This document shows, piece after piece, positions 6,891-32,803 of a stretch of 38,077 nt of DNA. The translations under genes and the position numbers were made by a program. Origin of the DNA: a virus. How positions within the stretch are numbered: position 1 is the stretch's first letter; each line of letters starts with the position of its first letter. The notes under the pieces are model-generated. The model did no database searches, was not told the origin of the DNA, and saw nothing but the letters and a program-made list of their open reading frames with translations. The stretch is taken from IMG/VR virus record IMGVR_UViG_3300037827_000194, positions 1-38,077 of that record; one strand, 5' to 3'.

Positions 6891-7514
6891 ATGCCAGTTG
6901 TAGAAAATTGTTCAAAATGCGGTGAGAAAAAAGATAAAGTAGACAAAGACGGCGTTGGTAGATGCTCTCAGTGTAGAAGAGAAAGAAGCAAAGAACTTAG
7001 AGCAAAAAAGCGCGCTGAAAAAGGACTTCATCCAATTGGTAGTGGTGGAAGAAGTCCCCTTTGTTATAACTGTGGAAAACTAAAAGAAAACCCTAAAATT
7101 GGATATTGTCATGCCTGTAAAAGAGAACAAGATAATGAATGGAGACTAAAAACTGGCAGAACAATTAAACATCGCACGGGAAAATGTGCATGCGGAAATG
7201 AATTTGCGAGTTATAGTCGATACCAGTGCGTAGATTGTTATCGAAAATATAGGCAAGAAAAAAGACAAGATCCAGAATACAGGGATAGAACCTTTAAACA
7301 AAACGTAAGGACGTTTACAAGGAACTGCATTAAAATTGGCATTTTAATTAAGGAACAATGCAAGATTTGCGGGACGAATGAAAATGTTGAGGCTCACCAT
7401 GAAGATTATACAAAACCTTTAGATGTAATATGGTTATGTAGAAATCACCACCGTGAACACCATAAAAATCAAATTAGAGGAGAAGAAAATGCCTACAGCT
7501 CAAATACAAAATGA
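6891..7514 (+). CDS. HNH endonuclease with zinc ribbons, homing type, 207 aa
   Basis: The N-terminal half carries zinc-knuckle pairs: C7/C10 with C25/C28, C58/C61 with C73/C76, and C99/C101 with C113/C116. The C-terminal HNH core has C157/C160, the EAHHEDY histidines (H169, H170) and WLCRNHHREHH. Free-standing HNH genes of this kind nick or cut cognate phage DNA and spread by repair. The ribosome site is inside the 6844-6882 hairpin. The last 26 bases overlap the start of the next structural gene, including its ribosome site, which suggests insertion right at that boundary. Confidence 0.88.
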   Translation: MPVVENCSKCGEKKDKVDKDGVGRCSQCRRERSKELRAKKRAEKGLHPIGSGGRSPLCYNCGKLKENPKIGYCHACKREQDNEWRLKTGRTIKHRTGKCACGNEFASYSRYQCVDCYRKYRQEKRQDPEYRDRTFKQNVRTFTRNCIKIGILIKEQCKICGTNENVEAHHEDYTKPLDVIWLCRNHHREHHKNQIRGEENAYSSNTK

Positions 7515-8355
7515 AACCATATACGCATTGCCACGCCTATATACTCAAGGCTTGCAATTATCCGCTGCCACTCCAACTGCTGCTACAGTAGTTTGTGTTG
7601 CTCCTGGTGCTGCAAGAGATTCCACTAACAGTATCGATATGGTTGTAGGGTTACAAAACTACTTCGGTATTGATAACCCAGCGCAACTATTCAATGGCTA
7701 CCAACCAGGGTTATTTATTAACTCAGCGGTTAATGGTGCTAATGGTTTAGATACCGGTGCAATTGCTGCTAGTACTCAATACGCAGTGTATTTAATTGGT
7801 GATTCACGTAATTATCAAAATACTGCTGCTGTATTAAGCTTGACCAGCAATACTGCTCCATTGTTGCCATCTGGTTATGATTCCTATCGCTTGATTGGTT
7901 TCTGGGCTACAGATGGTTCCAGTCACTTCGTGTACGCAACCAATAAGCCTCAAAACATTGCTGGATTGTTGACTTATTACAATTCCCCTGCAATTTCTGT
8001 GTTATCTGGTGGTACAGCGACTTCCTTTACAGCGATTGACTTAACCACTAATAGTGCTATTCCAACCACTACACTAGAGAACATAATTGTTACTTTGTTA
8101 GTAACTTTTACTCCTGTGGCAGTAGGCGACGCCGTTCAGTTTAGACCTACAGGTTCAAGTGCTACTGGTGGATTGCCAACAATCACTGGTGCGGTTGCCG
8201 GTATTGCTCAAAGCCAATACATCCAAGTAATTGCGGGTGTAGGTTCATCTAAACCTGAAATCGACTACAAGGTGACTTCTGGTTCTGATGCTGTGAGTGT
8301 GTCTGTAGTTGAATGGGCTGGTGTATCTAACAGCGCTTACCCTGCTCTAGTTTAA
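7489..8355 (+). CDS. Putative virion structural protein, 288 aa
   Basis: I chose ATG 7489 because AGAGGAG at 7476-7482 is a consensus ribosome site; an in-frame ATG at 7453 has none. The product is rich in small, beta-forming residues (LQLSAATPTAATVVCVAPGA, NTAPLLPSGYDSYRLIGFW, ending SVVEWAGVSNSAYPALV). It has no membrane helix. It follows coat and precedes the gp4-like gene, where P22-like phages place head or tail accessory proteins. Its fold is unknown; decoration or head-fibre is possible. Confidence 0.72.
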   Translation: MPTAQIQNETIYALPRLYTQGLQLSAATPTAATVVCVAPGAARDSTNSIDMVVGLQNYFGIDNPAQLFNGYQPGLFINSAVNGANGLDTGAIAASTQYAVYLIGDSRNYQNTAAVLSLTSNTAPLLPSGYDSYRLIGFWATDGSSHFVYATNKPQNIAGLLTYYNSPAISVLSGGTATSFTAIDLTTNSAIPTTTLENIIVTLLVTFTPVAVGDAVQFRPTGSSATGGLPTITGAVAGIAQSQYIQVIAGVGSSKPEIDYKVTSGSDAVSVSVVEWAGVSNSAYPALV

Positions 8356-9198: not shown

Positions 9199-9774
9199 TT
9201 GAAGAAGATTAAGCGTTGTGAAAAACATAATTTAGAGAAAAAAGAAATAGGAAAAAATAAACAATTGAGATGCAATGAATGTTTTAACGAATATAGGCGA
9301 AATTATAATTTAAAGAATATAGAAAAAGTCAAAGAAAAAAATAAAAAATATAATGCTTTAACGAAACAAAGACGTGAAGAATGGACTAGGCAAGACAGAA
9401 AAGAGAATCCAGAAAGGCATAAAGAATATGGTAGACGATATTATCATTTAAATTTTATTCAATATCAGGCAAATAGAACAGCCAGAAAATATGGGTTATC
9501 TTACGATGATTATATTGAAATGATTAAATTATCTAATGATAAATGCGCTATATGCAATCAAGAAGAAAAAAGAAGGCTAGGAAAGCAAGAGAAATTAACA
9601 CAGCTCTCTATAGACCATAACCATAAAAATGGAAAAGTTAGGGGCTTAATTTGTTATGGATGTAACTTAATAATTGGTTATGCCGAAGACAATATCCAGC
9701 TACTTAAAAACGCGATAAGCTACCTAGAGAAACACAAGCACTTCATGGATGATTCAATCGGAGTTATTCAATGA
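9199..9774 (+). CDS. HNH endonuclease, recombination endonuclease VII family, 191 aa
   Basis: The start is TTG with GCGAGG upstream. An N-terminal zinc knuckle (C7, C25/C28) and a long Lys/Arg/Asn helix precede the endonuclease-VII core: C116/C119, the catalytic SIDHNH block (D139, H140, H142), and C152/C155 with GCN. The family cuts branched or specific DNA; free-standing copies next to phage genes behave as mobile elements. The gene is much richer in A than its neighbours. Its stop overlaps the ATG of the next small membrane protein (ATGA). Confidence 0.87.
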   Translation: MKKIKRCEKHNLEKKEIGKNKQLRCNECFNEYRRNYNLKNIEKVKEKNKKYNALTKQRREEWTRQDRKENPERHKEYGRRYYHLNFIQYQANRTARKYGLSYDDYIEMIKLSNDKCAICNQEEKRRLGKQEKLTQLSIDHNHKNGKVRGLICYGCNLIIGYAEDNIQLLKNAISYLEKHKHFMDDSIGVIQ

Positions 9775-11931: not shown

Positions 11932-12303
11932 ATGTCTACGCAACAACCCATATTACAGGCCATTTTCCCAGACTTACCACGTGAGACACCCGTTATTGGT
12001 AGAGATGGTGATTTTAGCCCTCTATGGAGTCTTGGGCTTTCTGCTTTGTTTCAGGCATTGCAAGAAAACTTCAAGAATGAGGGAATTATTTTCCCAAGAT
12101 TAAGTGCTGCGAACATTGCCAATATTCAGGCAATTTATACCCCATTAATTGGTTCACCATTGCCGCAAAACATCCCTGATATTAGCGGCCAAACTGTGTT
12201 CGATACGACCAATCGAGTTTCAAAACAATTTGTAATAACGTATGATGGGGCTACGCCACCGAATATTGTAACGGCAGCGTGGAGACAATTTGTATATCTA
12301 TGA
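11932..12303 (+). CDS. Hypothetical virion-associated protein, 123 aa
   Basis: ATG 11932 follows AAGGAGATAAAC. The protein has a Pro-rich N-terminus (QPILQAIFPDLPRETPVIG), then WSLGLSALFQALQENFKNEG, and ends TAAWRQFVYL. I have the impression of similar proteins after gp10-like genes in environmental podoviruses. Its place matches the P22 needle/gp14 slot, but there is no long coiled coil, so a needle is unlikely. Probably part of the tail or ejection apparatus. Confidence 0.68.
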   Translation: MSTQQPILQAIFPDLPRETPVIGRDGDFSPLWSLGLSALFQALQENFKNEGIIFPRLSAANIANIQAIYTPLIGSPLPQNIPDISGQTVFDTTNRVSKQFVITYDGATPPNIVTAAWRQFVYL

Positions 12304-16136: not shown

Positions 16137-16199
16137 ATGTTGCTTTATATGTTCATTTGGCTTTCTATTTATGCTTGTTTGTGTTTTCTAGAAAGTTAA
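16137..16199 (+). CDS. Possible 20-aa hydrophobic peptide
   Basis: ATG 16137 opens a 20-codon frame, MLLYMFIWLSIYACLCFLES, that would be one membrane-spanning helix; GAGAG lies 8 bases upstream. It overlaps the 3' end of the reverse-strand HNH gene. It may be a real toxic-type or lysis peptide, the 5' remnant of a gene cut by HNH insertion, or chance in an AT-rich gap. Confidence 0.25.
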   Translation: MLLYMFIWLSIYACLCFLES

Positions 16200-16734
16200 T
16201 GGCTGACTCAAGATATTCTGGATTATCAAAAAATTGACCAAGACCAGAATTGCATCGTTGGCACAATAATCCACGGATTATTTTTGTCTTATGACAATGG
16301 TCAACAGAAAGCCTTTTTGGAGAACCATCACTTTTGGTTCCAAGTGCCGACTCTGATTTTTTGCATATAGCACATGCGTAATTTTGTTGTATAAGAATAG
16401 TCTCATACTCATTGATATCTAATCCAAATCTTCTTTTTAAATGAGAACGATTTTTATGATATTCCTTGGTGCTATTTTGGAATCTACATATATCACAATA
16501 AGGTGATAATAATTTCCATTGGTAGGGTTTGAACTCAGATTTTGGTTTTATAATACGGCATCGAGAGCATTTTCTTTCAATAATTTCATCTGAAACTGTT
16601 TTGTAACGATGTATGGATGAACGAGTATTATTGCATTGTTTACATACAATTTCATTGCGTGGTGGCTTTCTTCTATAAACTTGATTTTCTGTGAGATTGC
16701 CATGAATTTTACAAGCTTTAACAATTACTGACAT
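16165..16734 (-). CDS. HNH endonuclease, endonuclease VII family, 189 aa
   Basis: Reverse strand; I take the ATG at 16734 rather than GTG at 16740, which is too close to the GGATGAG ribosome-like site. Zinc knuckles in the N-terminal half (CKIHG with CKQC; CSRC with CDIC) precede the core: CAICKKSE, RLSVDHCHKTKIIRGLLC and CNSGLGQF, followed by a helix ESAINFLENT. The core is the same type as at 9199 but the N-terminal parts differ, so the two are not a simple recent duplication. It sits between the ejection operon and the fibre genes. Confidence 0.87.
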   Translation of the reverse strand: MSVIVKACKIHGNLTENQVYRRKPPRNEIVCKQCNNTRSSIHRYKTVSDEIIERKCSRCRIIKPKSEFKPYQWKLLSPYCDICRFQNSTKEYHKNRSHLKRRFGLDINEYETILIQQNYACAICKKSESALGTKSDGSPKRLSVDHCHKTKIIRGLLCQRCNSGLGQFFDNPEYLESAINFLENTNKHK

Positions 16735-16772
16735 AATCACTCATCCAGTGTCATCATTTTAAATGCAAAACC

Positions 16773-23620: not shown

Positions 23621-23952
23621 AGCTTCCTTGGCCACCAAGCGTTAATCATTATTGGCGACACACAAAGAACGGTCATTACATCAGCGCTGAGGGCATAAAT
23701 TATCGTGAAACAGTCTTTTATTCTTGCGTGAAACATCGAGGCACACTTCCAGACGATGCTAGATTATCGGTTCGTATAGAAGCCTTCCCACCGGATAAGA
23801 GAAAAAGAGACCTGGATAATGTGCTTAAGGCGCTTTTAGATGCGTTGCAGAAAGCGGGCGTTTACAAAGATGACAGCCAGATCGACTTTCTGGCCATCAA
23901 TAGAAATCCTTCGAAAGAAGGAAAGGTGAGAGTGGAAATAACCGAGCTCTAA
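23611..23952 (+). CDS. rusA: RusA-type Holliday junction resolvase
   Basis: The 113-residue product has PWPPSVNHYWR at the N-terminus and RDLDNVLKALLDAL with the catalytic Asp pair (D67, D69) and Lys 73, then YKDDSQI with the third Asp. RusA cuts four-way junctions symmetrically, resolving recombination and replication intermediates before packaging. It overlaps the endolysin stop and converges on ssb, with a 4-base tail overlap and no terminator between. Confidence 0.93.
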   Translation: MVIELPWPPSVNHYWRHTKNGHYISAEGINYRETVFYSCVKHRGTLPDDARLSVRIEAFPPDKRKRDLDNVLKALLDALQKAGVYKDDSQIDFLAINRNPSKEGKVRVEITEL

Positions 23953-24359
23953 AATGGAATTTCGCTGTCATTAAAATCATTATAAGAAGCTTTCTTTTTT
24001 TCTTGACTGGGTTTTGATTCAGGCTCTTTTTTCTTAGCGCTTTGTATAAATTTTATATCTTGAGCCGTTACCGAATAAATGTATTGGCCAGCGCGTTCGC
24101 CCGTTTCAATTTTCTTATTATTAATCTCACCACGCACATAAATGCTATCTCCTACATGAACATATTTGGCAGCAATCTCAGCAAGCTTGCTAAAGCAATT
24201 TATATTGTGCCAGGTCGTGCGCACCTGCTTTTCACCGCTAGAGTCCTTGTATTTCGTGGTCGTGGCCAAGGAAATGACGGTTATTTCACCGCCATTATTT
24301 AATGTTTTGGTTTCTTTTTTGCCAACATGGCCAACTAAAATAGCTTCATTTATCATCAT
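23949..24359 (-). CDS. ssb: Single-stranded DNA-binding protein
   Basis: OB-fold features are MMINEAILVGHVGKKETKTL at the start, TTWHNINCFSKLAEIAAKYV and VRGEINNKKIETG, and the C-terminus ends DFNDSEIPF, like the acidic tip that recruits partner proteins. AAGGA lies 4 bases before the first ATG and 7 before the second, so translation may begin at 24356. The last gene of the reverse recombination operon. The HNH stop overlaps its start by 14 bases, and the first residues are copied at the start of that HNH protein. Confidence 0.93.
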   Translation of the reverse strand: MMINEAILVGHVGKKETKTLNNGGEITVISLATTTKYKDSSGEKQVRTTWHNINCFSKLAEIAAKYVHVGDSIYVRGEINNKKIETGERAGQYIYSVTAQDIKFIQSAKKKEPESKPSQEKKKASYNDFNDSEIPF

Positions 24360-24924
24360 ATTGTCCTTTAAATTGACCTTTATTATTTATTTTTCTATTC
24401 TTGTAATTTTCTTTTGCGTGATGCGCGCTATGCTCACTACGTGTCATAATCTGTAAATTATCTAGACAGTTGTTCGTTTTATTACCATCTACGTGATGAA
24501 CCACTTCTTCTTTTTTTAATTTCCTGCCTAATTTTGTTTCCATTATTAATTTATGTTCACTTTTGTGTTTGTATTCTCCGCGAGTTAGTTCTATATATCC
24601 AGATGGCTTTAAAGTTCTTCCCTTGGCATTAACATTACTCCATGAATTTCTGGCTATAGAAATATTTTCTTTCCATTCTTCTGTAAATATTCTTTTTTTA
24701 CCTTTTATCATGCAGGTTCTTCCATCTTTGGAGGCTATTCTTATTCCTTCTGTTCTTGTCCTAAGCAATCCTTCCTTCAATAAAATCAACCTTATCGTAG
24801 AAGGTGCTCTATTTAGTTGCGTAGCAATCTGTGCGATGCTTAATTTTTTGTTTACATATAAAAAACAAATATATTCTTTTTGATTTAATTGATTATTTTC
24901 CACGCGGATGGCTTCGTTAATCAT
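24346..24924 (-). CDS. HNH endonuclease with helix-turn-helix, homing type, 192 aa
   Basis: The ATG at 24924 overlaps the recT stop, with GGAG upstream. Domains in order: an ssb-like start (MINEAIRV), a helix-turn-helix (LSIAQIATQLNRAPSTIRLI), a middle typical of HNH homing proteins (PSGYIELTRGEYKHKSEHKL), and the HNH core VVHHVDGNKTNNCLDNLQIM. The tail ends inside the ssb start. The family cuts unoccupied alleles and promotes its own transfer. Its A-rich coding differs from recT. The enzyme core looks intact. Confidence 0.88.
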   Translation of the reverse strand: MINEAIRVENNQLNQKEYICFLYVNKKLSIAQIATQLNRAPSTIRLILLKEGLLRTRTEGIRIASKDGRTCMIKGKKRIFTEEWKENISIARNSWSNVNAKGRTLKPSGYIELTRGEYKHKSEHKLIMETKLGRKLKKEEVVHHVDGNKTNNCLDNLQIMTRSEHSAHHAKENYKNRKINNKGQFKGQYDDK

Positions 24925-25802
24925 CAAGCTTTCTCCAATTGTAATAAAAATATGCGTGCTTGCGCATCGGTTAATTCCTCAAGTACTTCAACTTTATGAT
25001 AGGCCAAAGCTTTCTTGATTCGCTCTTTACTGAACTCTTTCAACATCATTAAATCGTTGATTTCATCTATTTGTTCCTGGCTTACTGGCAATGTAGTGCT
25101 GCCTGATTCACGGGCTTTTTTAGGCGTGTCAACAAGCTCTCCTGTCTCAGAGTCAATCACATTGTCCTCTAAAATACTTTTGAGTTTTTCAGTTTGCGTA
25201 TTGCCTTCAATGACGCGAATATTCTGGGTTTCTTGTTGCGGTATTTCAGCATCAGAATAAGTGCCAGAAAGGACTTCCTGAAAGGCTTGGCGCAACGCTT
25301 GAGCTTCCGCTACCTTCTTTATCATCGTCTCAGGCTTTGACTTCCACAGGCTCTGATTGGCGTTATACTCTTCCATTGTCACCATCACATAAGTGTATTT
25401 AGAAGATGTTTTGCGCTTAACAATACAATAAGCCCCTATTAATTGACCTCGGTTAGAAAAGCCATAACTGTGCTGAATCTCATTGTTTACGATTTTAAAT
25501 TCATCGTCTGAGTACACCGCATTTACTTGGTGGTACTCATAATCTTTCTGGCGTTGTGCGGCCTTCCTGTAGCCGTCACGTCCTAAGAATATACTCGCTG
25601 GTGTGCCTTGCTTGTACTTAACAGCCCATATTTCCCGCATGAAGGGATTGAGTTGTGTGGCTTTCCCAAGCTCTACTAAAAAACTAAATTCAATATCTGT
25701 TAAAGGAGCGGATGGAGATACTAATTTTCGTATTTCAGCTAACTTAGATGCGTTACTCCACATATCAATTGTTGTATTATTTAATGCTATTACGTTACTC
25801 AT
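24924..25802 (-). CDS. recT: RecT-family single-strand annealing protein, 292 aa
   Basis: ATG 25802 (MSNVIALNNTT) with AAAGGCG upstream is chosen; the longer in-frame ATG at 25832 lacks a ribosome site. Family features are the annealing core (GKATQLNPFMREIWAVKYKQ, IFLGRDGYRKAAQRQ) and YTYVMVTMEEYNANQSLW. The C-terminus is a charged helical tail. It anneals complementary strands resected by the YqaJ nuclease encoded upstream, as in RecET-type systems. It overlaps the HNH start by one base. Confidence 0.9.
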   Translation of the reverse strand: MSNVIALNNTTIDMWSNASKLAEIRKLVSPSAPLTDIEFSFLVELGKATQLNPFMREIWAVKYKQGTPASIFLGRDGYRKAAQRQKDYEYHQVNAVYSDDEFKIVNNEIQHSYGFSNRGQLIGAYCIVKRKTSSKYTYVMVTMEEYNANQSLWKSKPETMIKKVAEAQALRQAFQEVLSGTYSDAEIPQQETQNIRVIEGNTQTEKLKSILEDNVIDSETGELVDTPKKARESGSTTLPVSQEQIDEINDLMMLKEFSKERIKKALAYHKVEVLEELTDAQARIFLLQLEKA

Positions 25803-25803
25803 G

Positions 25804-25971
25804 TTATTCGCCTTTCGCAAACTTGATGCCATCTATGAATGATTGTGCTGCTATAGTTGCCTCTTTTTCAGAGGCATAATCACTTAAGGCATAAACCAAG
25901 TCACTATTAGCAAAAATATCAGCCATCCAAATATCCTGTATTTCCCATGTTTTAAAGTAATAATTAATCAT
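25804..25971 (-). CDS. Small protein between exonuclease and RecT, 55 aa
   Basis: The ATG (25971) overlaps the exonuclease stop (ATGA) and the TAA ends one base before the recT ATG, with recT's ribosome site inside its 3' end, so it is certainly positioned as a translated gene. The product has MINYYFKTWEIQDIWMADIF, then ALSDYASEKEATIAAQSFID, and ends FAKGE. Short, acidic and helical. No family recognised; a recombination modulator is a possible role. Confidence 0.7.
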   Translation of the reverse strand: MINYYFKTWEIQDIWMADIFANSDLVYALSDYASEKEATIAAQSFIDGIKFAKGE

Positions 25972-26810
25972 TGTGCCATTCCTTTCATTAAGAAGGTTCG
26001 AGTTCCTCTTTTGTTAGCCTTCCATGAAACAATGGGTCTTCCTGATTCGTCTGTGAGACATTCTGCGTCTTTCATAAATTGCATGATGTTAAATTTGTGC
26101 TTTTCTTCAACCTCACTCAAAGCCTTTATTTTAAAGCGTGTGTCAGCCAAAGTTGTTAATTGTTCTGCTACCTCTGGCGCAATTGTTACAGTCTTTTCTG
26201 GGTCATGTTTTGGGTACATGAGCTTCAAATCAACTTGGTTAATAGGTTCAGGTGGGGTACGAGTTTGAACACATTCCCAGAACTTTTTAGCCGCATCAAT
26301 AATCTTTGATTCCAGGTCAAGGTCACGAGTGTACTTAAACTCACGGTAATCGTTGCCACCAATTAATACAGCAATGTAGGCGCAATCTGCGTTCATTACC
26401 GCGCAATAGTGCGCAACTTGAACCAAATATTGCATAGGGATAACATCAGAACCGTCTTCGCCCCATTCATGAGCCATGAAACCAGCAGAGCATTTGACTT
26501 CAAGCACGGCATTCCACTCAGGAATGAAACCATCGACATTACCACGTAGAAAATCGTGGAAAGGGTGAACCAATGTATCGGGCGTTTCAACTGCCACATT
26601 GTTTCGTTTGGCGAACTCATCACGGATAACACCTTCAAGTTGATGACCCCAATATTGAAATGGCGTCATTTCACTATCATTTTCGACTTCGCCAATCTTC
26701 TCAAGGTATAATTGATATGGGGTTTTGTAATTGGATAGACCTAGAATTATTGGCATGTCGCTACCACCAATACCCAGTTTACGTTCTTCGCGTTGTTGTT
26801 CTGTAATCAT
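25968..26810 (-). CDS. YqaJ-type recombination exonuclease, 280 aa
   Basis: The nuclease-family signature GIGGSDMPIILGLSNYKTPY is near residue 13. Catalytic residues visible are E59 (HQLEG), D93 in GNVDGF and E104/K106 in LEVKCS. The enzyme degrades one strand of duplex ends, feeding RecT, and helps make recombination intermediates and concatemers. It is the first gene of the reverse recombination operon; a leader of about 90 bases with a shared operator-like repeat precedes it. Confidence 0.9.
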   Translation of the reverse strand: MITEQQREERKLGIGGSDMPIILGLSNYKTPYQLYLEKIGEVENDSEMTPFQYWGHQLEGVIRDEFAKRNNVAVETPDTLVHPFHDFLRGNVDGFIPEWNAVLEVKCSAGFMAHEWGEDGSDVIPMQYLVQVAHYCAVMNADCAYIAVLIGGNDYREFKYTRDLDLESKIIDAAKKFWECVQTRTPPEPINQVDLKLMYPKHDPEKTVTIAPEVAEQLTTLADTRFKIKALSEVEEKHKFNIMQFMKDAECLTDESGRPIVSWKANKRGTRTFLMKGMAQ

Positions 26811-26837
26811 AATAATTGCTCTCTATTGTTAAATTTA

Positions 26838-26853
26838 TTATCTCTGGTTAAAG
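26838..26853 (-). promoter_or_regulatory. Operator-like repeat in recombination operon leader
   Basis: On the reverse strand the core reads TTTAACCAGAGATAA. The same TTAACCARAGATA core occurs at 32411-32426 and 32433-32448, in the leader of the other reverse-strand operon. Here it lies about 50 bases after the predicted start site, so it could act as a DNA operator or an RNA control element. Confidence 0.5.
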
Positions 26854-26901
26854 AAACAAAATCCGTGTTCATAGTTCCTTCCTTAGTCGCCAATCATTGG
26901 C

Positions 26902-26939
26902 ATTGACACATCATGACAAATATAATATCATTTGTCAAT
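26902..26939. promoter_or_regulatory. Divergent promoters with overlapping palindromic operator
   Basis: Rightward: TTGACA (26903-26908), 17-base spacer, TATCAT (26926-26931) drives the Cro-like gene. Leftward: TTGACA on the reverse strand (26938-26933), 17-base spacer, CATGAT (26915-26910), to the recombination operon. A palindrome TGACAAAT (26914-26921) and ATTTGTCA (26930-26937), and outer arms ATTGACA/TGTCAAT, cover both. The Cro-like protein encoded next door is the natural ligand by position. The leftward -10 is weak. Confidence 0.68.
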
Positions 26940-26967
26940 ACTAATTACGTTTGTTATAGAGGTTTTT

Positions 26968-27147
26968 ATGAAGTTCAGTGAAGTCATGATTTATTATGAT
27001 TATAACATGTCTAAGATTGCTAAGGCTTTAGATACGAGCCGCCAATACGTGTCGTTATGGAAAAAAGAAAATCAAATACCGTTCCCAATGCAATGTATGT
27101 TACAGGTCATTACTAATGGGAAATTAAAGGCGAGCAAAGATGATTGA
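26968..27147 (+). CDS. Cro-like helix-turn-helix repressor, 59 aa
   Basis: ATG 26968 with AGAGG 6 bases upstream is chosen; an earlier in-frame start lacks a ribosome site. The sequence MSKIAKALDTSRQYVSLWK is a Cro-type helix-turn-helix, followed by ENQIPFPMQCMLQVITNGKL, matching lambda-Cro-like proteins. It probably binds the palindrome at 26902-26939 and balances its own rightward transcription with the leftward recombination operon. The partner repressor of a lysogeny switch is not present. Confidence 0.85.
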   Translation: MKFSEVMIYYDYNMSKIAKALDTSRQYVSLWKKENQIPFPMQCMLQVITNGKLKASKDD

Positions 27148-27400
27148 ATTACCTTGGGGTGAAAAGTGGGTGGTTAGATACAAGGAAAAGAGCGGGGCAG
27201 CAGGTATGGGAATGGCGAATCACTGGCAATGCTTACCGATAATGATAAGCCAGATTTTACAAAGCGGTGGACATGGAATTGTGATAACAGATGAGACCAT
27301 TAGACCGAAAATTATAGATGTAACTGGAGAAGAAAATGAGCAACACAGCAGCGAAGTACACACAAGAGCAATTGGATATAGCCCTATTGAAGAACACTAA
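27140..27400 (+). CDS. Hypothetical protein, 86 aa
   Basis: It overlaps the cro-like stop by 8 bases. Sequence features include MIELPWGEKWVVRYKEKSG and GMGMANHWQCLPIMISQILQ, then GIVITDETIRPKIIDVTG; the tail is charged. No membrane helix or known motif. Probably early, in the rightward operon of small genes. The 3' 65 bases overlap the next gene in another frame, so the C-terminal end may be less constrained. Confidence 0.6.
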   Translation: MIELPWGEKWVVRYKEKSGAAGMGMANHWQCLPIMISQILQSGGHGIVITDETIRPKIIDVTGEENEQHSSEVHTRAIGYSPIEEH

Positions 27401-27545
27401 TGAGGGTATTTTAAGAACTTTATCTCGCATAGAAACCGAGATTAAAAGTCATTTTCATTGGACTATGGGACTTATATTAGGTTTATATACGATTGGAGTT
27501 GGTGCGCTAATTAGTGCGCTTGGTAAAGCTTATGGAGTGTTTTAA
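27336..27545 (+). CDS. Small membrane-anchored protein, holin/XhlA-like, paralogue C, 69 aa
   Basis: GGAGAAGAAA precedes the ATG. A soluble helical part (QEQLDIALLKNTNEGILRTL, SRIETEIKSHFHW) leads to a C-terminal membrane segment (TMGLILGLYTIGVGALISAL). The order and the aromatic/Trp-Gly entry resemble the pair at 9771 and 10019, but here it is in the early region. XhlA-like sequences of this shape occur in many phages. Either a holin-type or a membrane-linked host-takeover role is possible. Confidence 0.72.
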   Translation: MSNTAAKYTQEQLDIALLKNTNEGILRTLSRIETEIKSHFHWTMGLILGLYTIGVGALISALGKAYGVF

Positions 27546-27547
27546 TT

Positions 27548-27613
27548 ATGAGTTGTATTACTGAAATAGAGTGTCATTCGATTATCGATCAGCTTATCGA
27601 GGTGGCCGCATGA
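27548..27613 (+). CDS. Possible 21-aa leader peptide
   Basis: ATG 27548 opens a frame of 21 codons (MSCITEIECHSIIDQLIEVA) whose TGA overlaps the ATG of the next gene (ATGA). A weak GGAGTG lies 9 bases upstream. The arrangement fits translational coupling, but there is no independent evidence of expression. Confidence 0.35.
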   Translation: MSCITEIECHSIIDQLIEVAA

Positions 27614-27807
27614 CCTTTTTTGAAGCTTTGCCGAGTATTTTATTATCAATAGCAGTCGTTTCTCAAGCTAGATGGATATCGAACCTAAGTGGTCGCATAA
27701 ACAAGCTTGAACGTGTAAACGCCACAAAGCAATGGCTTGATGCTATAGAGAGCGGTGAATCTCCAAGTGATTTGGCGTACATGCGAGAAAAAGGTTTTCT
27801 CAAATGA
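27610..27807 (+). CDS. Small membrane protein, 65 aa
   Basis: ATG 27610 (GAGG 8 bases upstream) is preferred over GTG 27571. An N-terminal hydrophobic segment (MTFFEALPSILLSIAVVSQA) is followed by a cytoplasmic-type charged helix (NLSGRINKLERVNATKQWLD) and a soluble tail ending REKGFLK. N-terminal anchor plus coiled helix is a common small-phage layout. It overlaps the next gene by 4 bases. Confidence 0.65.
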   Translation: MTFFEALPSILLSIAVVSQARWISNLSGRINKLERVNATKQWLDAIESGESPSDLAYMREKGFLK

Positions 27808-27995
27808 ATAAAACATTAAAACCAGAAGACATTTATGATGTATTTCATTCTATGACCGAAATAGAAATTCACGCAGCCACATCGACAATTAAGGCCGGAG
27901 AAGAAAAAGACCAATTAATGGGTCAAGGTTACATTTTGGCCGTAGAGCGTTGCCCTAATATTCTTAGGTCGATTATGAAGGATGTCCCATGCTAG
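27804..27995 (+). CDS. Small acidic hypothetical protein, 63 aa
   Basis: ATGA overlap with the previous gene; it overlaps the next by 7 bases. MNKTLKPEDIYDVFHSMTEI then HAATSTIKAGEEKDQLMGQG and a C-terminal RCPNILRSIMKDVPC. Helical, soluble, no motif recognised. Its presence in a dense run of overlapping frames supports translation. Confidence 0.62.
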   Translation: MNKTLKPEDIYDVFHSMTEIEIHAATSTIKAGEEKDQLMGQGYILAVERCPNILRSIMKDVPC

Positions 27996-28213
27996 ATAAA
28001 GCCACCAAATATAAAGCGGTTGGATGTGCTAACAAGTCGTTGCATTTTTTGCAACAACTGAAAAAGCACGTTCAAATTGGTGATGGATTTACACAAGCGC
28101 GCGCAGCATATGGATTAATGCTCATTGAAGCCTATTTGAATGGGCAGTTTTTAACAGAAGTTCAGGAGTTCACGGGTCATGAAGATGAAACCAATGAAAA
28201 TGGAAATCGATAA
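27989..28213 (+). CDS. Small hypothetical protein, 74 aa
   Basis: Overlaps both neighbours. MLDKATKYKAVGCANKSLHF then QQLKKHVQIGDGFTQARAAY and LMLIEAYLNGQFLTEVQEF; the end is acidic (GHEDETNENG). Helical and soluble. No recognised family; one of the early small-gene run. Confidence 0.6.
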   Translation: MLDKATKYKAVGCANKSLHFLQQLKKHVQIGDGFTQARAAYGLMLIEAYLNGQFLTEVQEFTGHEDETNENGNR

Positions 28214-28454
28214 GTATATTTATGTAGGTTGCATTCCCGTTTATGCCCATCCTGAGCGACCAAAAGACCAATCATTTTGTATAAAAAGAGATTGTCCTCA
28301 TTGTAAAAAACCGATGTGGGTTAGTGAGAAAAAAAGACAGCTTGAAGAAATTGACCCCGAAAGAATGAAGGTCTATTGCCTGGAGTGTTTAGCAATTGGG
28401 GCTATGAATCAAGGATATGAGCCGGAATTATTTGATATAGGAAAGATTAAATGA
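28179..28454 (+). CDS. Zinc-ribbon protein, 91 aa
   Basis: AGGAG lies 10 bases before ATG 28179, though later ATGs at 28185, 28194 and 28200 are possible. Two Cys pairs, DCPHCKKPMW and VYCLECLAIG, plus an upstream Cys (FCIKRD) form a zinc-ribbon-like fold. Such small proteins often bind nucleic acids or protein partners. Its stop overlaps the ATG of the next, frameshifted frame. Confidence 0.68.
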   Translation: MKMKPMKMEIDKYIYVGCIPVYAHPERPKDQSFCIKRDCPHCKKPMWVSEKKRQLEEIDPERMKVYCLECLAIGAMNQGYEPELFDIGKIK

Positions 28455-28736
28455 ATAAATATTTATGTATCTGCGGAGTCGGATTTAACAGAAAAAAAAG
28501 CTGATGACCACGTTAAAGTTTTTAGCGATGTGGACAATTCATGGCCTCACCAGGTAATGAAACGGAATTGGAAAGGACGATTTCTTGATTTTATATTTGA
28601 ATTTCCTTGGGGAAAGTGTTTCAGATTAATAGGATTAACTCTCATTTTATTTGTATTAGAGCATCATTTTAAAATTGATTTTACCATTTGGGAAGCCACT
28701 TTTTTAGGACTAGGAATAGGATTATACATTGACTAA
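28451..28736 (+). pseudogene. Frameshifted zinc-finger plus membrane protein gene (A8 tract)
   Basis: The first frame, from ATG 28451, reads MNKYLCICGVGFNRKKS and stops at 28504. A second frame from just after the A8 run at 28492-28499 continues as ADDHVKVFSDVDNSWPHQVM, then a basic stretch (KRNWKGRFLDFIFEF) and a hydrophobic C-terminus (LIGLTLILFVLEHHF) to 28736. Removing one A joins them into one 94-residue protein with an uninterrupted CIC...DDHVK finger. Either a real loss-of-function indel, slippage at the A run, or an assembly or sequencing error. Confidence 0.7.
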
Positions 28737-28950
28737 TGGACTATACAATGAGTACTCAGTGCTTACGGACGAGCGACATACCTGGCGCGTGGAAATAGAA
28801 CAAGGTTTATGGCACGAGCCGCTTGTGTTACAACAGTATAGAGAAAACAGAGAATCTAATCTGTGGCGCTCGACAAGAGAAGTGGAAAAGTTATGCGAGT
28901 ACGTTCTTTTTTTAGAAGAGCAACTCGCAAAACATAGGGAACACATTTAA
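28729..28950 (+). CDS. Small charged helical protein, 73 aa
   Basis: A TTG start at 28729 with TAGGA 7 bases upstream overlaps the previous frame by 8 bases. The product is helical (LTDERHTWRVEIEQGLWHEP, STREVEKLCEYVLFLEEQLA) and probably a coiled coil. No family recognised. The reverse strand also gives an open frame, but this strand fits the operon. Confidence 0.6.
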   Translation: MTNGLYNEYSVLTDERHTWRVEIEQGLWHEPLVLQQYRENRESNLWRSTREVEKLCEYVLFLEEQLAKHREHI

Positions 28951-28963
28951 TAAGGATTTTATT

Positions 28964-29299
28964 GTGGAATATAAGACATCACATTATGTGCTTGGTGAAA
29001 CTGAGCCTGAATCACAACCTCAAAAAGCTTTATCCGAAATAGTATTTTTGGTTAAAGAACGTCTTTCTGATGCCCTACATGATAATGATAGTGGACTTGC
29101 TGGTAATCATCCCAGGGTCATTATCTCAATGGTAATCACCAATATCCTCGTAAATTTATTATTTAATTCTATCGCTATCACTGATGTAAGCAGACGCTTG
29201 AATATGGTCAATGAAAGCCTGGATGAAATAAAAGAAATGACTTTAAATCTGTGGCACGCTATGGAAGCCCGTAGAGCCGACACGAAGACCCCACACTAA
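28964..29299 (+). CDS. Small membrane-associated protein, 111 aa
   Basis: GTG start at 28964 with AAGGAT upstream. An acidic N-terminus and helix (ALSEIVFLVKERLSDALHD) precede a hydrophobic stretch (VIISMVITNILVNLLFNSIA) and a C-terminal charged helix (VNESLDEIKEMTLNLWHAM). One membrane segment in the middle is likely. No family recognised. Confidence 0.62.
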   Translation: MEYKTSHYVLGETEPESQPQKALSEIVFLVKERLSDALHDNDSGLAGNHPRVIISMVITNILVNLLFNSIAITDVSRRLNMVNESLDEIKEMTLNLWHAMEARRADTKTPH

Positions 29300-29312
29300 C
29301 TTAGAGGTAATT

Positions 29313-29534
29313 ATGACCCATCATATCGTTGAGCCGTATGGTACAATTACAGTACCCGCAAATAGCGGTAAAGACCTTGTTAAGATAAAGTTAAATACCG
29401 AGAGTTTGACGACATTATTAAGGTCAAATATTTCTTGCCATATGAACAAAACTCTGAACCAAGAGCTAATTGATACGCTTACAAAGCAAATAATTGAATC
29501 TATTGATTTTTTCTTGAACAATCCTGTCGATTAA
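29313..29534 (+). CDS. Small hypothetical protein, 73 aa
   Basis: ATG 29313 after AGAGGTAATT. MTHHIVEPYGTITVPANSGK then KIKLNTESLTTLLRSNISC and a helical C-terminus (QIIESIDFFLNNPVD). Soluble, no motif seen. Last gene of the small-gene run before the repeat-rich region. Confidence 0.6.
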   Translation: MTHHIVEPYGTITVPANSGKDLVKIKLNTESLTTLLRSNISCHMNKTLNQELIDTLTKQIIESIDFFLNNPVD

Positions 29535-29808
29535 TTTTGGACTAGATTATATGAATTTGAGAAATTAACGGTTACTATATCTAGGAAGTTTTAGAGGCTT
29601 CCTGCCTCACTACTTTTTTATTATTAGGTCGTTTGAATACAATCCGCCAAGATACTTATTCAAACTTTACACGTCACGCGAAACACAAAAAGTTTTGGCT
29701 TCGGGCTTTTTGTTATGGACTACACATCCGTTCGCGCTACTACCATAACAAGTGTGTTATTTGCATTGGGCGATTAACCTACACACATAACAAGGGCGAT
29801 TATACACC
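29535..29808. other. Repeat-rich region upstream of replication genes (possible origin)
   Basis: This 274-base gap carries two terminator-like hairpins (29583-29619 and 29686-29712), an inverted repeat GTTATGG (29712-29718)/CCATAAC (29743-29749), and two direct repeats: CATAACAAG at 29744-29752 and 29786-29794, and GGGCGATTA at 29768-29776 and 29794-29802. Phage O-type initiators often bind repeats in or beside their own gene. An origin is a reasonable inference, but control of the O-like gene is equally possible. Confidence 0.5.
29583..29619 (+). terminator. Terminator after the early small-gene run
   Basis: AGGAAG (29583-29588) pairs with CTTCCT (29598-29603), and an alternative pairs GAGGC (29594-29598) with GCCTC (29604-29608), followed by a run of six T at 29614-29619. 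A plausible factor-independent terminator for the operon ending at 29534. Confidence 0.55.
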
Positions 29809-30600
29809 ATGACGGACGACAATAACAACAAATCACAAGCATATGGAATAGAAAAGTATGAAGGTTCTTTTGACCAAGATGATTTAGGCGTCACTCAAAT
29901 TCCTACTGAAACAATCAAGACGATAAAAAACTTTACACAGCTCGCTTTATTTACATTTCTTGCCTCATGCTCCAAAGACTGGAGACTTAACGCAAAACAT
30001 CTAGCCACTCATTTTGACTGCAATAAAGAAACCATTTACAAAGCAATTGACGCGCTCATTGCTCAAGGCTTCTTAACACGCACCCAAGTAAGAAACAAAG
30101 GGAAGTTCGTAAGATACCATTATCGGTTAAGTTTAAGACAAATTAATAAATCGACCGAACCGAGTCTGGAAAAACCGTATACGGTCGAACCAGATACGGA
30201 AAATCCAGACGCATATAAAACAGAGAACTTAACAAACAAAGAAGTTATATTAAAACCCTCTGTCGATTCTAAATCGACGGCTAAGCCTAAAGAGTACAAA
30301 GAAGATTTATTATTCATGGAATTTTACAAGCTCTACCCAAACAAACAAAAGCCAACCATAGCCTACAAAGCCTTCTTGAAGCATAAGCCTACGCCTGAGT
30401 TTGTGGCTATGCTGATTACTGACCTCATGGAACGCATAGAGGGGAACTGGAAGGGAAGAGATAAAAGCAAAATACCATTTCCAGCAACTTACCTGAATGG
30501 TCGAGAATGGGAAGGCGAAATTTACGACAATGTAGTATCGACCGTTAAGAAATCGACTAAATACAAAACATGGGATGAAATTGTAGGGGACGTCGCATGA
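29809..30600 (+). CDS. Replication initiator, O-like winged-helix protein, 263 aa
   Basis: The N-terminal part has a winged helix (FTQLALFTFLASCSKDWRLN, KHLATHFDCNKETIYKAIDA, LIAQGFLTRTQVRNKGKF). A linker with Ser/Thr/Glu/Pro follows. The C-terminal part (FYKLYPNKQKPTIAYKAF, KIPFPATYLNGREWEGE) resembles the C-terminal helicase-loader contact of phage O-type initiators. It would bind origin repeats just upstream and recruit the P-like protein and host helicase. The stop overlaps the P-like ATG (ATGA). Confidence 0.78.
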   Translation: MTDDNNNKSQAYGIEKYEGSFDQDDLGVTQIPTETIKTIKNFTQLALFTFLASCSKDWRLNAKHLATHFDCNKETIYKAIDALIAQGFLTRTQVRNKGKFVRYHYRLSLRQINKSTEPSLEKPYTVEPDTENPDAYKTENLTNKEVILKPSVDSKSTAKPKEYKEDLLFMEFYKLYPNKQKPTIAYKAFLKHKPTPEFVAMLITDLMERIEGNWKGRDKSKIPFPATYLNGREWEGEIYDNVVSTVKKSTKYKTWDEIVGDVA

Positions 30601-31328
30601 AACAAATAGGCGATTTACTTAACGTAGGTAGCTTATCTGTAGCACGAGACGAAAAACAAACTTACACCACCATTGACCCATTGGCAGTTAAACTTGTTGA
30701 GTATGTATTTGCTAAGTTCTATGTGCTTTGTCGTGGTACTGATGCGTTATTCGCTGATGAGAAACGCAAACAGGCTGAAAAAACACAGTGGTATGCTTCA
30801 TTCACGCGCCAGCAATACACCTGTGTAGACCATATCCGCAAAGCATTGTTAAGGCTAGAACGTCATAAATACCCAAACCCACCACAGTTAGGCGAATTTT
30901 TATCCTGGAATGAGTCAAGCCCAGATGATTTAGGGCTTTTAAGCAAAGAACAGGCATTTAACCGTAGTGCTGAATTTATTCGTGATGGTAGTGTGAAGGG
31001 ATTATCAGACGATCAGAACATGCTAATTGGCTTATCAGTCAAGGAATCAGACCGCTATTTCATGCGCAATAACCCGATAAGCAAAACACAGCCAGTCTTT
31101 CAGCGTAACTATGAGCTAATCGTAAAAAATTACCTTGATGGCAAGATTGAGCCAATACCGAAAGGCTTAGAGGATAAGCACGAAGAAACCCAAGAGCTAC
31201 AAAAGCAGCAAGAAATCAAAAAGGACTTTGATAATTTTAAGGGCTATGAGCAATGTATGCCTGAAATAAGAAAAATGTTAGGGATGAACGCGGATGGCTC
31301 ACCAAACACCCATGTTAAGCGACGATGA
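30597..31328 (+). CDS. Helicase loader, lambda P-like, 243 aa
   Basis: Coupled to the O-like gene by an ATGA overlap. The central block QWYASFTRQQYTCVDHIRKA, then LLRLERHKYPNPPQLGEFLS, matches the P-family pattern of Trp/Phe-rich helices followed by a PxPPxxxEF motif. Such proteins load the host DnaB helicase. Residues around 190-230 are charged coil. Role is by family and synteny; the sequence is distant from lambda P. Confidence 0.72.
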   Translation: MKQIGDLLNVGSLSVARDEKQTYTTIDPLAVKLVEYVFAKFYVLCRGTDALFADEKRKQAEKTQWYASFTRQQYTCVDHIRKALLRLERHKYPNPPQLGEFLSWNESSPDDLGLLSKEQAFNRSAEFIRDGSVKGLSDDQNMLIGLSVKESDRYFMRNNPISKTQPVFQRNYELIVKNYLDGKIEPIPKGLEDKHEETQELQKQQEIKKDFDNFKGYEQCMPEIRKMLGMNADGSPNTHVKRR

Positions 31329-31629
31329 TTGCAAGTCGATTATATCCATACTTTGCAAGCGTTTATGCGTAAGACCAAAGCTTGTCGTTGAAAGACTAGT
31401 AAGCGAGGATGATAAAGACGATATGAGAAATGGCGATTTAACTATCGACCAACTCGAAGCGCATATCAAAGTATGGGTAGCTAATGGAATGCCTGACTAC
31501 GCACACGGTAAAACTGAAACCTATCACGATGAACAAAAACGTATTAAACGCGAAAAACCTTTTAATACCATCGTAGAAAATAACGAAGGGCTAATATATC
31601 GCAAACCCTTCGTTCCATATGCTGATTAG
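31294..31629 (+). CDS. Hypothetical protein after the P-like gene, 111 aa
   Basis: It overlaps the P-like gene by 35 bases. SDDDCKSIISILCKRLCVRP, KLVVERLVSEDDKDDM, then HIKVWVANGMPDYAHGKTE. The pattern 'KVWVANGMPD' recalls small proteins found near phage replication genes, but I cannot name a family. Its 3' end meets the reverse-strand operon tail to tail with a 4-base overlap. Confidence 0.65.
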   Translation: MAHQTPMLSDDDCKSIISILCKRLCVRPKLVVERLVSEDDKDDMRNGDLTIDQLEAHIKVWVANGMPDYAHGKTETYHDEQKRIKREKPFNTIVENNEGLIYRKPFVPYAD

Positions 31630-31817
31630 CTTAAGGCAAACTGCTGTAGCTTTAATAAAACGATATTACCATCAGTATCAGCGATAATATTTCTACGCTT
31701 ACCCCGTAGTATATTCACAGTAAGCTTATTATCGATTGTGGCTACATTGACCTTACAGTCTTTGTTTTTCTCAATGATAGCCCATAGTACAGCCATTATC
31801 TTAGTGATTAAGTCCAT
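31626..31817 (-). CDS. Small protein, last of reverse operon, 63 aa
   Basis: ATG at 31817 with GGAGAGGG upstream is chosen; the longer frame's ATG at 31832 overlaps that ribosome site. MDLITKIMAVLWAIIEKNKD then CKVNVATIDNKLTVNILRGK and a tail ending LLKLQQFALS. The N-terminal helix is hydrophobic and may associate with membrane. No family recognised. Overlaps or abuts the upstream gene of the same operon. Confidence 0.65.
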   Translation of the reverse strand: MDLITKIMAVLWAIIEKNKDCKVNVATIDNKLTVNILRGKRRNIIADTDGNIVLLKLQQFALS

Positions 31818-31818
31818 T

Positions 31819-32019
31819 TTAACCCTCTCCATTTTCTAATAAGTCGATATGACCTATTACCGCAAACCGAGCCTCTTGTTCAGCTTCAAAGAAATCATCT
31901 GATTCAATTTCACCATTATCATAGGGTGGACATCCTGTCCCGTAAATAATGTAATACCAACCGAAATCAATATCATACTCAATGATAAATTCATAACAAC
32001 TGTATTTTTCTCTGCTCAT
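31819..32019 (-). CDS. Small acidic protein, 66 aa
   Basis: Start overlaps the previous stop (TAATG). The product is acidic and Tyr/Trp-rich (CYEFIIEYDIDFGWYYIIYG, then NGEIESDDFFEAEQEARFA), resembling small phage proteins that mimic nucleic acid or cover protein surfaces. That is an analogy from charge only. Part of the four-gene reverse operon. Confidence 0.68.
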   Translation of the reverse strand: MSREKYSCYEFIIEYDIDFGWYYIIYGTGCPPYDNGEIESDDFFEAEQEARFAVIGHIDLLENGEG

Positions 32020-32165
32020 TATGCTGCTTCCTCATCACGCCATAAATCATATTCATAATCAGCGCGTTCATCCGCAGCACGCTCACAATCATCACACAAA
32101 CCACAGTGGCCATGACATTCGTTCTCATCACCATGCCAACCGTCCATCATTCCTCGATAGCTCAT
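32019..32165 (-). CDS. Small Cys/His-rich acidic protein, 48 aa
   Basis: ATG 32165 overlaps the previous gene's stop (ATGA), and its TAA overlaps the next ATG. The 48-residue product (MSYRGMMDGWHGDENECHGH) has CGLCDDCERAADER, giving a clustered C-x3-C-x2-C-x2-C pattern around the HGH, so a small zinc site is likely. The C-terminus is acidic. Its coding frame was supported by continuity and overlaps. Confidence 0.68.
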   Translation of the reverse strand: MSYRGMMDGWHGDENECHGHCGLCDDCERAADERADYEYDLWRDEEAA

Positions 32166-32401
32166 GCTGCAACCTCCATGTTAAGTTCACAATATTGCCT
32201 GAACTTAGGAATCATCCCGACTAGCTCATCCAAGCTGTCACTTTTTTTATGAATGAGTCCATCAACCCAAAAACGATACTCAGCTTTTTCATCACCTGAG
32301 CATGTATGACACCACATGCTTATTTCAATATTAGAGGACTTACCGACATTAACGCGAACCCAATTTGCGAACTCACGTAATTGATTGATTTGCTCATTCA
32401 T
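32162..32401 (-). CDS. Small hypothetical protein, first of reverse operon, 79 aa
   Basis: First gene after the near-consensus reverse promoter at 32454-32482, with GGAG at the ribosome site (GATAGGAG). QINQLREFANWVRVNVGKSS, then NIEISMWCHTCSGDEKAEYR (two Cys in CHTC), RFWVDGLIHKKSDSLDELV and a C-terminus KFRQYCELNMEVAA. No family recognised; the CxxC may bind metal. Confidence 0.7.
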   Translation of the reverse strand: MNEQINQLREFANWVRVNVGKSSNIEISMWCHTCSGDEKAEYRFWVDGLIHKKSDSLDELVGMIPKFRQYCELNMEVAA

Positions 32402-32410
32402 AAAAAACTC

Positions 32411-32448
32411 CTATCTCTGGTTAAAAGTAAAATTATCTTTGGTTAACG
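32411..32448 (-). promoter_or_regulatory. Two operator-like repeats in the reverse operon leader
   Basis: On the reverse strand TTAACCAGAGATA (copy at 32411-32426) and TTAACCAAAGATA (32433-32448) match the copy at 26838-26853. The distal copy overlaps the predicted transcription start of the four-gene operon. Shared only between the leaders of the two reverse-strand operons, this suggests common control. Confidence 0.55.
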
Positions 32449-32453
32449 AAGCT

Positions 32454-32482
32454 ATTATGTCAAAGTAAATAACACATGTCAA
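32454..32482 (-). promoter_or_regulatory. Near-consensus reverse promoter for the four-gene operon
   Basis: On the reverse strand TTGACA (32482-32477), a 17-base spacer and CATAAT (32459-32454) form a strong sigma70-type promoter. The spacer resembles the leftward promoter at 26910-26938 at many positions. Transcription would start near 32447 and run into the gene ending at 32162. Confidence 0.7.
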
Positions 32483-32572
32483 CTACAATTTACAATAATA
32501 ATAATTATGACTTTATGTCATCAATATAGTATGTTAGTATTTGATTTATTAGATAAGCTAAGGATAGCTATT

Positions 32573-32803
32573 ATGTTGTGTCATAGATGTCGTGGTACAG
32601 GAAGATACTTAGGCAATGGGATGATGATGACCAATTGCACTTTATGCGATGAGGATGGAAAGCCAATCAAAGCCGAACAACCTAAGATTGACCGTAAATC
32701 CAGTTCCTACCAGAAAGCTATAAAAGATATTATGGCTATTAACCCTACTATATCCCGTGCTGAGGCTGTTAAGATGTTTGACAAGGCTTATGACAAAGTT
32801 TGA
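32573..32803 (+). CDS. DnaJ-type zinc finger protein, 76 aa
   Basis: ATG 32573 with AAGGA about 8 bases upstream is chosen; an earlier in-frame ATG at 32507 extends through a poor region. MLCHRCRGTGRYLGNGMM and NCTLCDEDGKP give two CxxC pairs, the first with the CxxCxGxG arrangement of DnaJ zinc fingers. The C-terminal half is a basic helical tail (AIKDIMAINPTISRAEAVKM). It overlaps the region before the small terminase gene, suggesting a partner or regulator of packaging. Confidence 0.7.
   Translation: MLCHRCRGTGRYLGNGMMMTNCTLCDEDGKPIKAEQPKIDRKSSSYQKAIKDIMAINPTISRAEAVKMFDKAYDKV

Follow-up and report, generated by a model that had tools for sequence, protein, structure and literature searches.

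In phage lambda, the pL operon (gam-bet-exo) is a leftward early operon in which an exonuclease, an annealing protein and small accessory genes are placed under the same control. In phage T7, the Gp1.2 protein is an inhibitor of E. coli dGTPase. In cluster K mycobacteriophages, a short asymmetric sequence (SAS) with a GATAGGAG-like core lies directly upstream of selected start codons. The SAS sites are numerous in each genome, an extended form (ESAS) has 17-bp inverted repeats, and the extended part is subcluster-specific (PMC3203893). In archaeal viruses, small unknown anti-defence genes have been recognised by a shared strong early regulatory sequence (PMC11065993).

Here we analysed an island of four small genes in a 38,077-base virus record with a lambda-like layout; the window below means this whole stretch. 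As in the lambda pL operon, leftward early-type control appears to be common to recombination genes and small accessory genes. Unlike in lambda, these accessory genes are organised as an operon of their own, which lies about 5 kb from the recombination genes, between P and the terminase genes, and has a separate copy of the control region. As with the early anti-defence genes of archaeal viruses, a shared strong regulatory sequence lies upstream of small genes. In contrast to the archaeal system, the virus is a bacterial phage, the motif is different, and the partner operon is a recombination operon.

Layout and conservation of the island

The island is a tight chain of four minus-strand frames between a lambda-P-like replication block and the terminase genes (Table 1). 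The earlier note had placed it against the replication and packaging genes, and the flanking genes on both sides are indeed on the plus strand. The same note described the four frames (79, 48, 66 and 63 codons) as overlapping. The chain and the lengths are correct, but only the first two junctions overlap: A79/B48 is ATGA, B48/C66 is TAATG, and C66 and D63 are separated by a 1-base gap. Two of the proteins had been said to contain cysteine, but it turned out that all four do (three residues in A79, four in B48, two in C66 and one in D63). The protein singled out as acidic and containing aromatic residues can be recognised in C66 (pI 4.1, 13 aromatic residues of 66), but B48 is also strongly acidic (pI 4.2). 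D63 is basic (pI 9.7).

Table 1. Positions of the island, its partner operon and the neighbouring genes in the window
Feature	Position	Strand	Remark
YqaJ/RecE-type exonuclease gene	25968-26810	-	First recombination-operon gene; phage homologues annotated RecE-like exonuclease
YqaJ leader repeat, copy 2	26820-26833	-	TTTAACAATAGAGA
YqaJ leader repeat, copy 1	26839-26852	-	TTTAACCAGAGATA
Recombination-operon promoter	26910-26938	-	TTGACA, 17 bp, CATGAT
P22-Cro-like gene	~26968-27147	+	Pfam P22_Cro
O-like replication gene	from 29809	+	O/P-like genes span 29809-31328
Lambda-P-like replication gene	from 30597	+	Pfam Phage_lambda_P
g111	from 31294	+	Island neighbour on the P side
D63, island gene 4	31817-31626	-	ORF, 63 aa (68 aa from upstream ATG)
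C66, island gene 3	32019-31819	-	ORF, 66 aa
B48, island gene 2	32165-32019	-	ORF, 48 aa
A79, island gene 1	32401-32162	-	ORF, 79 aa
Island leader repeat, copy 2	32412-32425	-	TTTAACCAGAGATA; runs into Shine-Dalgarno AGGAG
Island leader repeat, copy 1	32434-32447	-	GTTAACCAAAGATA; begins at predicted transcription start
Island promoter	32454-32482	-	TTGACA (32482-32477), 17 bp, CATAAT (32459-32454)
TerS, Sf6-type	from 32800	+	Beyond g98
TerL	35073		Terminase gene, lambda-like layout

The g98 gene (32507-32803, plus strand), opposite to the island and ahead of TerS, is conserved and carries a CxxCxG...CxxC knuckle; judging by its homologues, the true start is probably 32573 and not 32507. Four free-standing HNH-endonuclease-like ORFs were seen by eye in the 38 kb (6891-7514 and 9199-9774 on the plus strand, 16165-16740 and 24346-24927 on the minus strand), one of which lies between RecT and SSB. 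No tRNA genes were found in the window.

About 30 IMG/VR contigs of uncultivated phages have the same island, likewise placed between g98/TerS and g111/O and in the same orientation. For pairs with estimable dS, dN/dS against the window was mostly 0.02-0.3, with values up to 0.38 in the C66 pairs that are furthest apart. Synonymous sites were saturated in many of the D63 comparisons and in several of those with C66. Thus, judged by synteny and purifying selection, the four ORFs are real genes. Purifying selection at the amino-acid level in all four ORFs means that the proteins themselves are selected. This speaks against the idea that the transcript matters too, with the island RNA running antisense into g111, P and O and tempering replication like lambda OOP/paQ. 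Such antisense action would fit with the convergence of D63 and g111, whose stop codons share 4 bases in most relatives, and with the terminator scan, which lists no minus-strand terminator at 31210-31626 and only a weak one at 31209-31196. We consider it very unlikely.

The order and content of the island are modular. The first gene is A79, X68 (MNFADLTDTDYTF...) or DLM, and the third is C66 or encodes a 72-residue protein. The members that vary least are B48 and D63, B48 being absent from a few islands. We considered A79, X68, DLM (and C66) as one family and rejected this, as it has no sequence-level support (hhalign probability of ~1% or less). In B48, the cysteines C17, C21, C24 and C27 are invariant in 11 sequences, and this predicted four-cysteine site is probably a metal-binding knuckle. 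C66 has the conserved tail EARFAAIGHIDLLENGEG. In one relative, a gene is inserted at the island head (L053 3224-3673, plus strand; its start is probably an internal methionine), and it carries the Pfam domain LPD25, named for large polyvalent proteins. In more distant phages, a cold-shock-domain gene lies near the C66 homologue (L020 5511-5729 and L021 6522-6737, both minus strand); the L020 copy, the only one scanned, matches Pfam CSD with an E of 2e-22.

Promoter and leader sequences common to the island and the YqaJ operon

A strong near-consensus promoter had been proposed for the island from the window's letters, and the comparison with relatives bears this out. The promoter has 11 of 12 matches and TG before the -10, and only three sites of this quality exist within 12.5 kb. 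The -35, the exact 17-bp spacer and the -10 are kept in 21 of the 21 islands examined, where the best site is TTGAC[AT], 17 bp, [CA]A[TC]AAT. In several relatives, extra genes separate A79 from the promoter, which remains at the island head.

The partner of the island is the leftward YqaJ-RecT-SSB operon at 23949-26810 (RecT and SSB were named by eye). To compare the two leaders, we used local alignment, which gave a score of 15.9 within a genome; shuffled pairings scored 11.7 (sd 1.0), and 0 of 10,000 came up to the observed value. The promoter spacers agree at 9.35 of 17 positions within a genome versus 7.85 (sd 0.46) when shuffled (4 of 10,000); clade structure contributes to both scores, and the shuffle tests are not independent of phylogeny, since leader similarity partly follows clade. 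The clearest cases do not depend on such statistics. In the relative L090, tandem ACATGTACGCA boxes 21 bp apart (two helical turns) lie at both promoters, at 7726 and 7747 for the island and at 12051 and 12072 for YqaJ. They are found nowhere else in the 13.8 kb examined, and one of the four reads ACATGTACTCA. In the phage L087, a stretch close to CACAYGTATAAAAATAGTTGACATGT is present at both promoters. Taken together, these boxes, the shared stretch and the leader and spacer scores give good evidence that a single regulator may act on both operons. With leader and promoter sequences common to both, the island resembles a second early operon that is regulated together with YqaJ-RecT-SSB. Control shared with an early-type recombination operon and the conserved strong promoter also argue against late expression or a role in virion assembly, the case which the earlier note had set against its own proposal.

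Common control with YqaJ-RecT-SSB could also be explained if the island proteins assisted the phage machinery for recombination or replication as accessory subunits, similar to the Gam, Abc or NinB helpers. C66 homologues beyond this phage group lie in leftward operons (L006 664-882, L008 6001-6186, L019 3997-4188 (+)). By eye, the L019 homologue is directly ahead of exonuclease and RecT genes, and those of L006 and L008 are upstream of a RecA/AAA-like ATPase gene, which fits this explanation. However, in this phage group the island and the recombination operon are separate loci, and none of the island proteins could be matched by sequence or fold with a known recombination mediator. We regard the role of recombination helpers as unlikely.

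Two further observations concern the control region of the partner operon. Beside the P22-Cro-like gene, no recognisable CI-type repressor ORF was seen by eye (26700-29800), so the phage may be strictly lytic. A 21-codon upstream ORF (MNTDFVSLTRDNKFNNREQLL; 26807-26872, minus strand) lies ahead of YqaJ, with an ATGA overlap at the YqaJ start, and has AAGGAAGG as a ribosome-binding site of its own. Similar upstream ORFs of 16-21 codons end at the same spot in most of the 20 relatives examined, and this may possibly be a conserved leader peptide.

Directly before A79, the island leader contains the direct tandem repeat TTTAACCANAGANA, and such a pair is also present in the YqaJ leader (Table 1). 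The copies are 19-22 nt apart, the second is 22-25 nt before the ATG, and the repeat is retained where the promoter is not adjacent to A79. Scanning the whole IMG/VR for the exact pair, with small spacing changes allowed, gave 13 stretches among the matches listed, each of which stands immediately before A79 or YqaJ. Among 84,980 genomes of bacteria and archaea, the pair had one match, a low-complexity repeat on an unrelated contig of a Bacteroidales MAG, which was rejected. Two relatives (G001 and G014) have the motif at A79 and not at YqaJ, and the DLM-type islands G008 and G013 are without it. Relatives with another gene-1 family have different sequences in common between the two leaders, such as CAAAGATAAGAGGA in L061 and ACGCATA...ACTAGGAGATTGA in L083.

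Like the SAS, the motif is short and asymmetric with a GATAGGAG-like core, and it precedes a start codon at all IMG/VR matches listed. Unlike the SAS, it consists of direct tandem repeats, is limited to leftward early-type operons and has only one to three sites in a genome. The SAS is defined as 5'-GGGATAGGAGCCC with at most 2 deviations and precedes many genes per genome, whereas the island leader reads TTTAACCAGAGATAGGAGTTTTTT, with few exact matches per genome, all confined to leftward operons, and falls outside this definition. The TTTAAC of the leader recalls the rRNA boxA core. A boxA/nut antitermination site was not adopted, because GCTC, upstream of it, is not conserved and the spacing is constant relative to the ATG and not to the promoter. 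The predicted fold of the island leader is a weak hairpin of -7.2 kcal/mol over 86 nt (a value without shuffle control).

The fixed distance to the ATG and the run of the second repeat into the Shine-Dalgarno sequence could mean that the shared leader is a copied efficient ribosome-binding region with no regulator, the island being a constitutively strong early operon; single TTTAACCANAGANA copies also precede a few inserted genes. But the first repeat is 19-22 nt upstream, outside the ribosome-binding site, and the promoter sequences, including the tandem upstream boxes of L090, are also shared within genomes. A leader copied for translation alone seems quite improbable.

In two distant relatives, a CsrA gene is the last island gene (L087 8398-8577 and L090 8383-8568, plus strand; Pfam PF02599, E of 3e-23 and 8e-23). 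CsrA is an RNA-level regulator, and its presence there points to RNA or translation control in these relatives. It is conceivable, although decidedly doubtful, that a phage or host protein reads the tandem TTTAACCANAGANA leader as an operator at the RNA level. The two operons would then form a post-transcriptional regulon coupling new host-directed proteins to recombination, and in the CsrA-carrying relatives the same switch would be read by another factor.

Predicted folds and relatives of the island proteins

Pfam and PHROG scans of the four island proteins gave nothing above chance, and solved-structure profile searches with C66, D63, B48 and A79 gave chance matches only. B48, a D63 relative and C66 were compared with named phages; the first two had no match, and C66 had one match at chance level (E 0.8). 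No match to C66 was found in bacterial and archaeal genomes.

A79 is modelled well (pLDDT 90), with a predicted alpha-beta3-alpha fold that may be of the dsRBD/Gp1.2-like type. Its best solved match is T7 Gp1.2 (PDB 7u65, 7u66), which the model resembles in arrangement and size, but the match is weak (Z 6.8 over 70 residues, rmsd 2.6, Foldseek E 0.095). A79 has 4% identity to Gp1.2, and the match is tied with the dsRBD 8z49 (Z 6.0) and the hibernation factor HPF 4hei (Z 5.9). Many dsRBDs are found at Z 5-6 and are not separable from other families. When PDB sequences were searched with a profile built from 10 sequences of A79, Gp1.2 was absent from the hits at E up to 10, and A79 had no match to a dsRBD family of Pfam up to E 1. 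The best predicted-structure matches of A79 are unnamed small phage proteins (TM 0.69-0.71). The C66 model (pLDDT 84) has a beta3-4-alpha fold and weakly matches small beta-alpha proteins, the best being MmoD (Z 6.8). MmoD is the inhibitory subunit of methane monooxygenase. In VIA-align, a Z under 8 may reflect only a common arrangement, and the A79 and C66 fold matches are thus leads only.

Structure comparison with anti-defence proteins, which the earlier note had suggested, did bring up a weak candidate, C66 with AcrIF24 (Z 4.6 and 4.1). In line with the earlier note, which had linked such gene sets with host takeover or anti-defence, each of the small proteins might block a bacterial immunity system (restriction, CRISPR, RecBCD or toxin-antitoxin). 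Slots 1 and 3 swap unrelated small families around the near-constant B48 and D63, as is expected of genes chasing host variation, and in archaeal viruses anti-defence genes are known to be predicted by an early regulatory sequence that they share (PMC11065993). However, the AcrIF24 match lies at background (Z 4-5), the island proteins fit no family in Pfam or PHROG, and typical anti-defence genes vary more than B48 and D63 do. We consider an island devoted to anti-defence rather unlikely, although anti-defence would be one plausible kind of host-directed action.

Proposed role of the island

The reading that we prefer, and hold to be fairly likely, is that the island is a second early leftward operon under the control of YqaJ-RecT-SSB, making small host-directed proteins. 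It would be a pL-type operon of a lambda-like phage starting at 32482. From the partner operon and by analogy with lambda, we infer early timing; a common regulator and the protein targets are likewise our proposal. A shared phage regulator, for which the P22-Cro-like protein is a candidate, would act at both promoters, and the shared leader element at the ribosome-binding site would add to the joint control. The four small proteins would be made together by coupled translation through overlapping start and stop codons. Since the on-switch of the island matches that of the recombination genes, the proteins probably act on the host cell early in infection. The products are most likely small host-directed accessory factors. 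They would bind and retune host nucleic-acid-handling proteins (nucleases, dNTP/RNA enzymes, defence nucleases) during phage DNA replication and recombination.

Thus, four undescribed protein families, conserved in phages without a named relative, are linked by sequence to a recombination operon, and a guess about tiny genes becomes a testable regulon. The small size of A79 and B48 makes them suitable for direct structure determination and pull-down experiments. In this group of phages, the shared control region can serve to find more early genes directed at the host.
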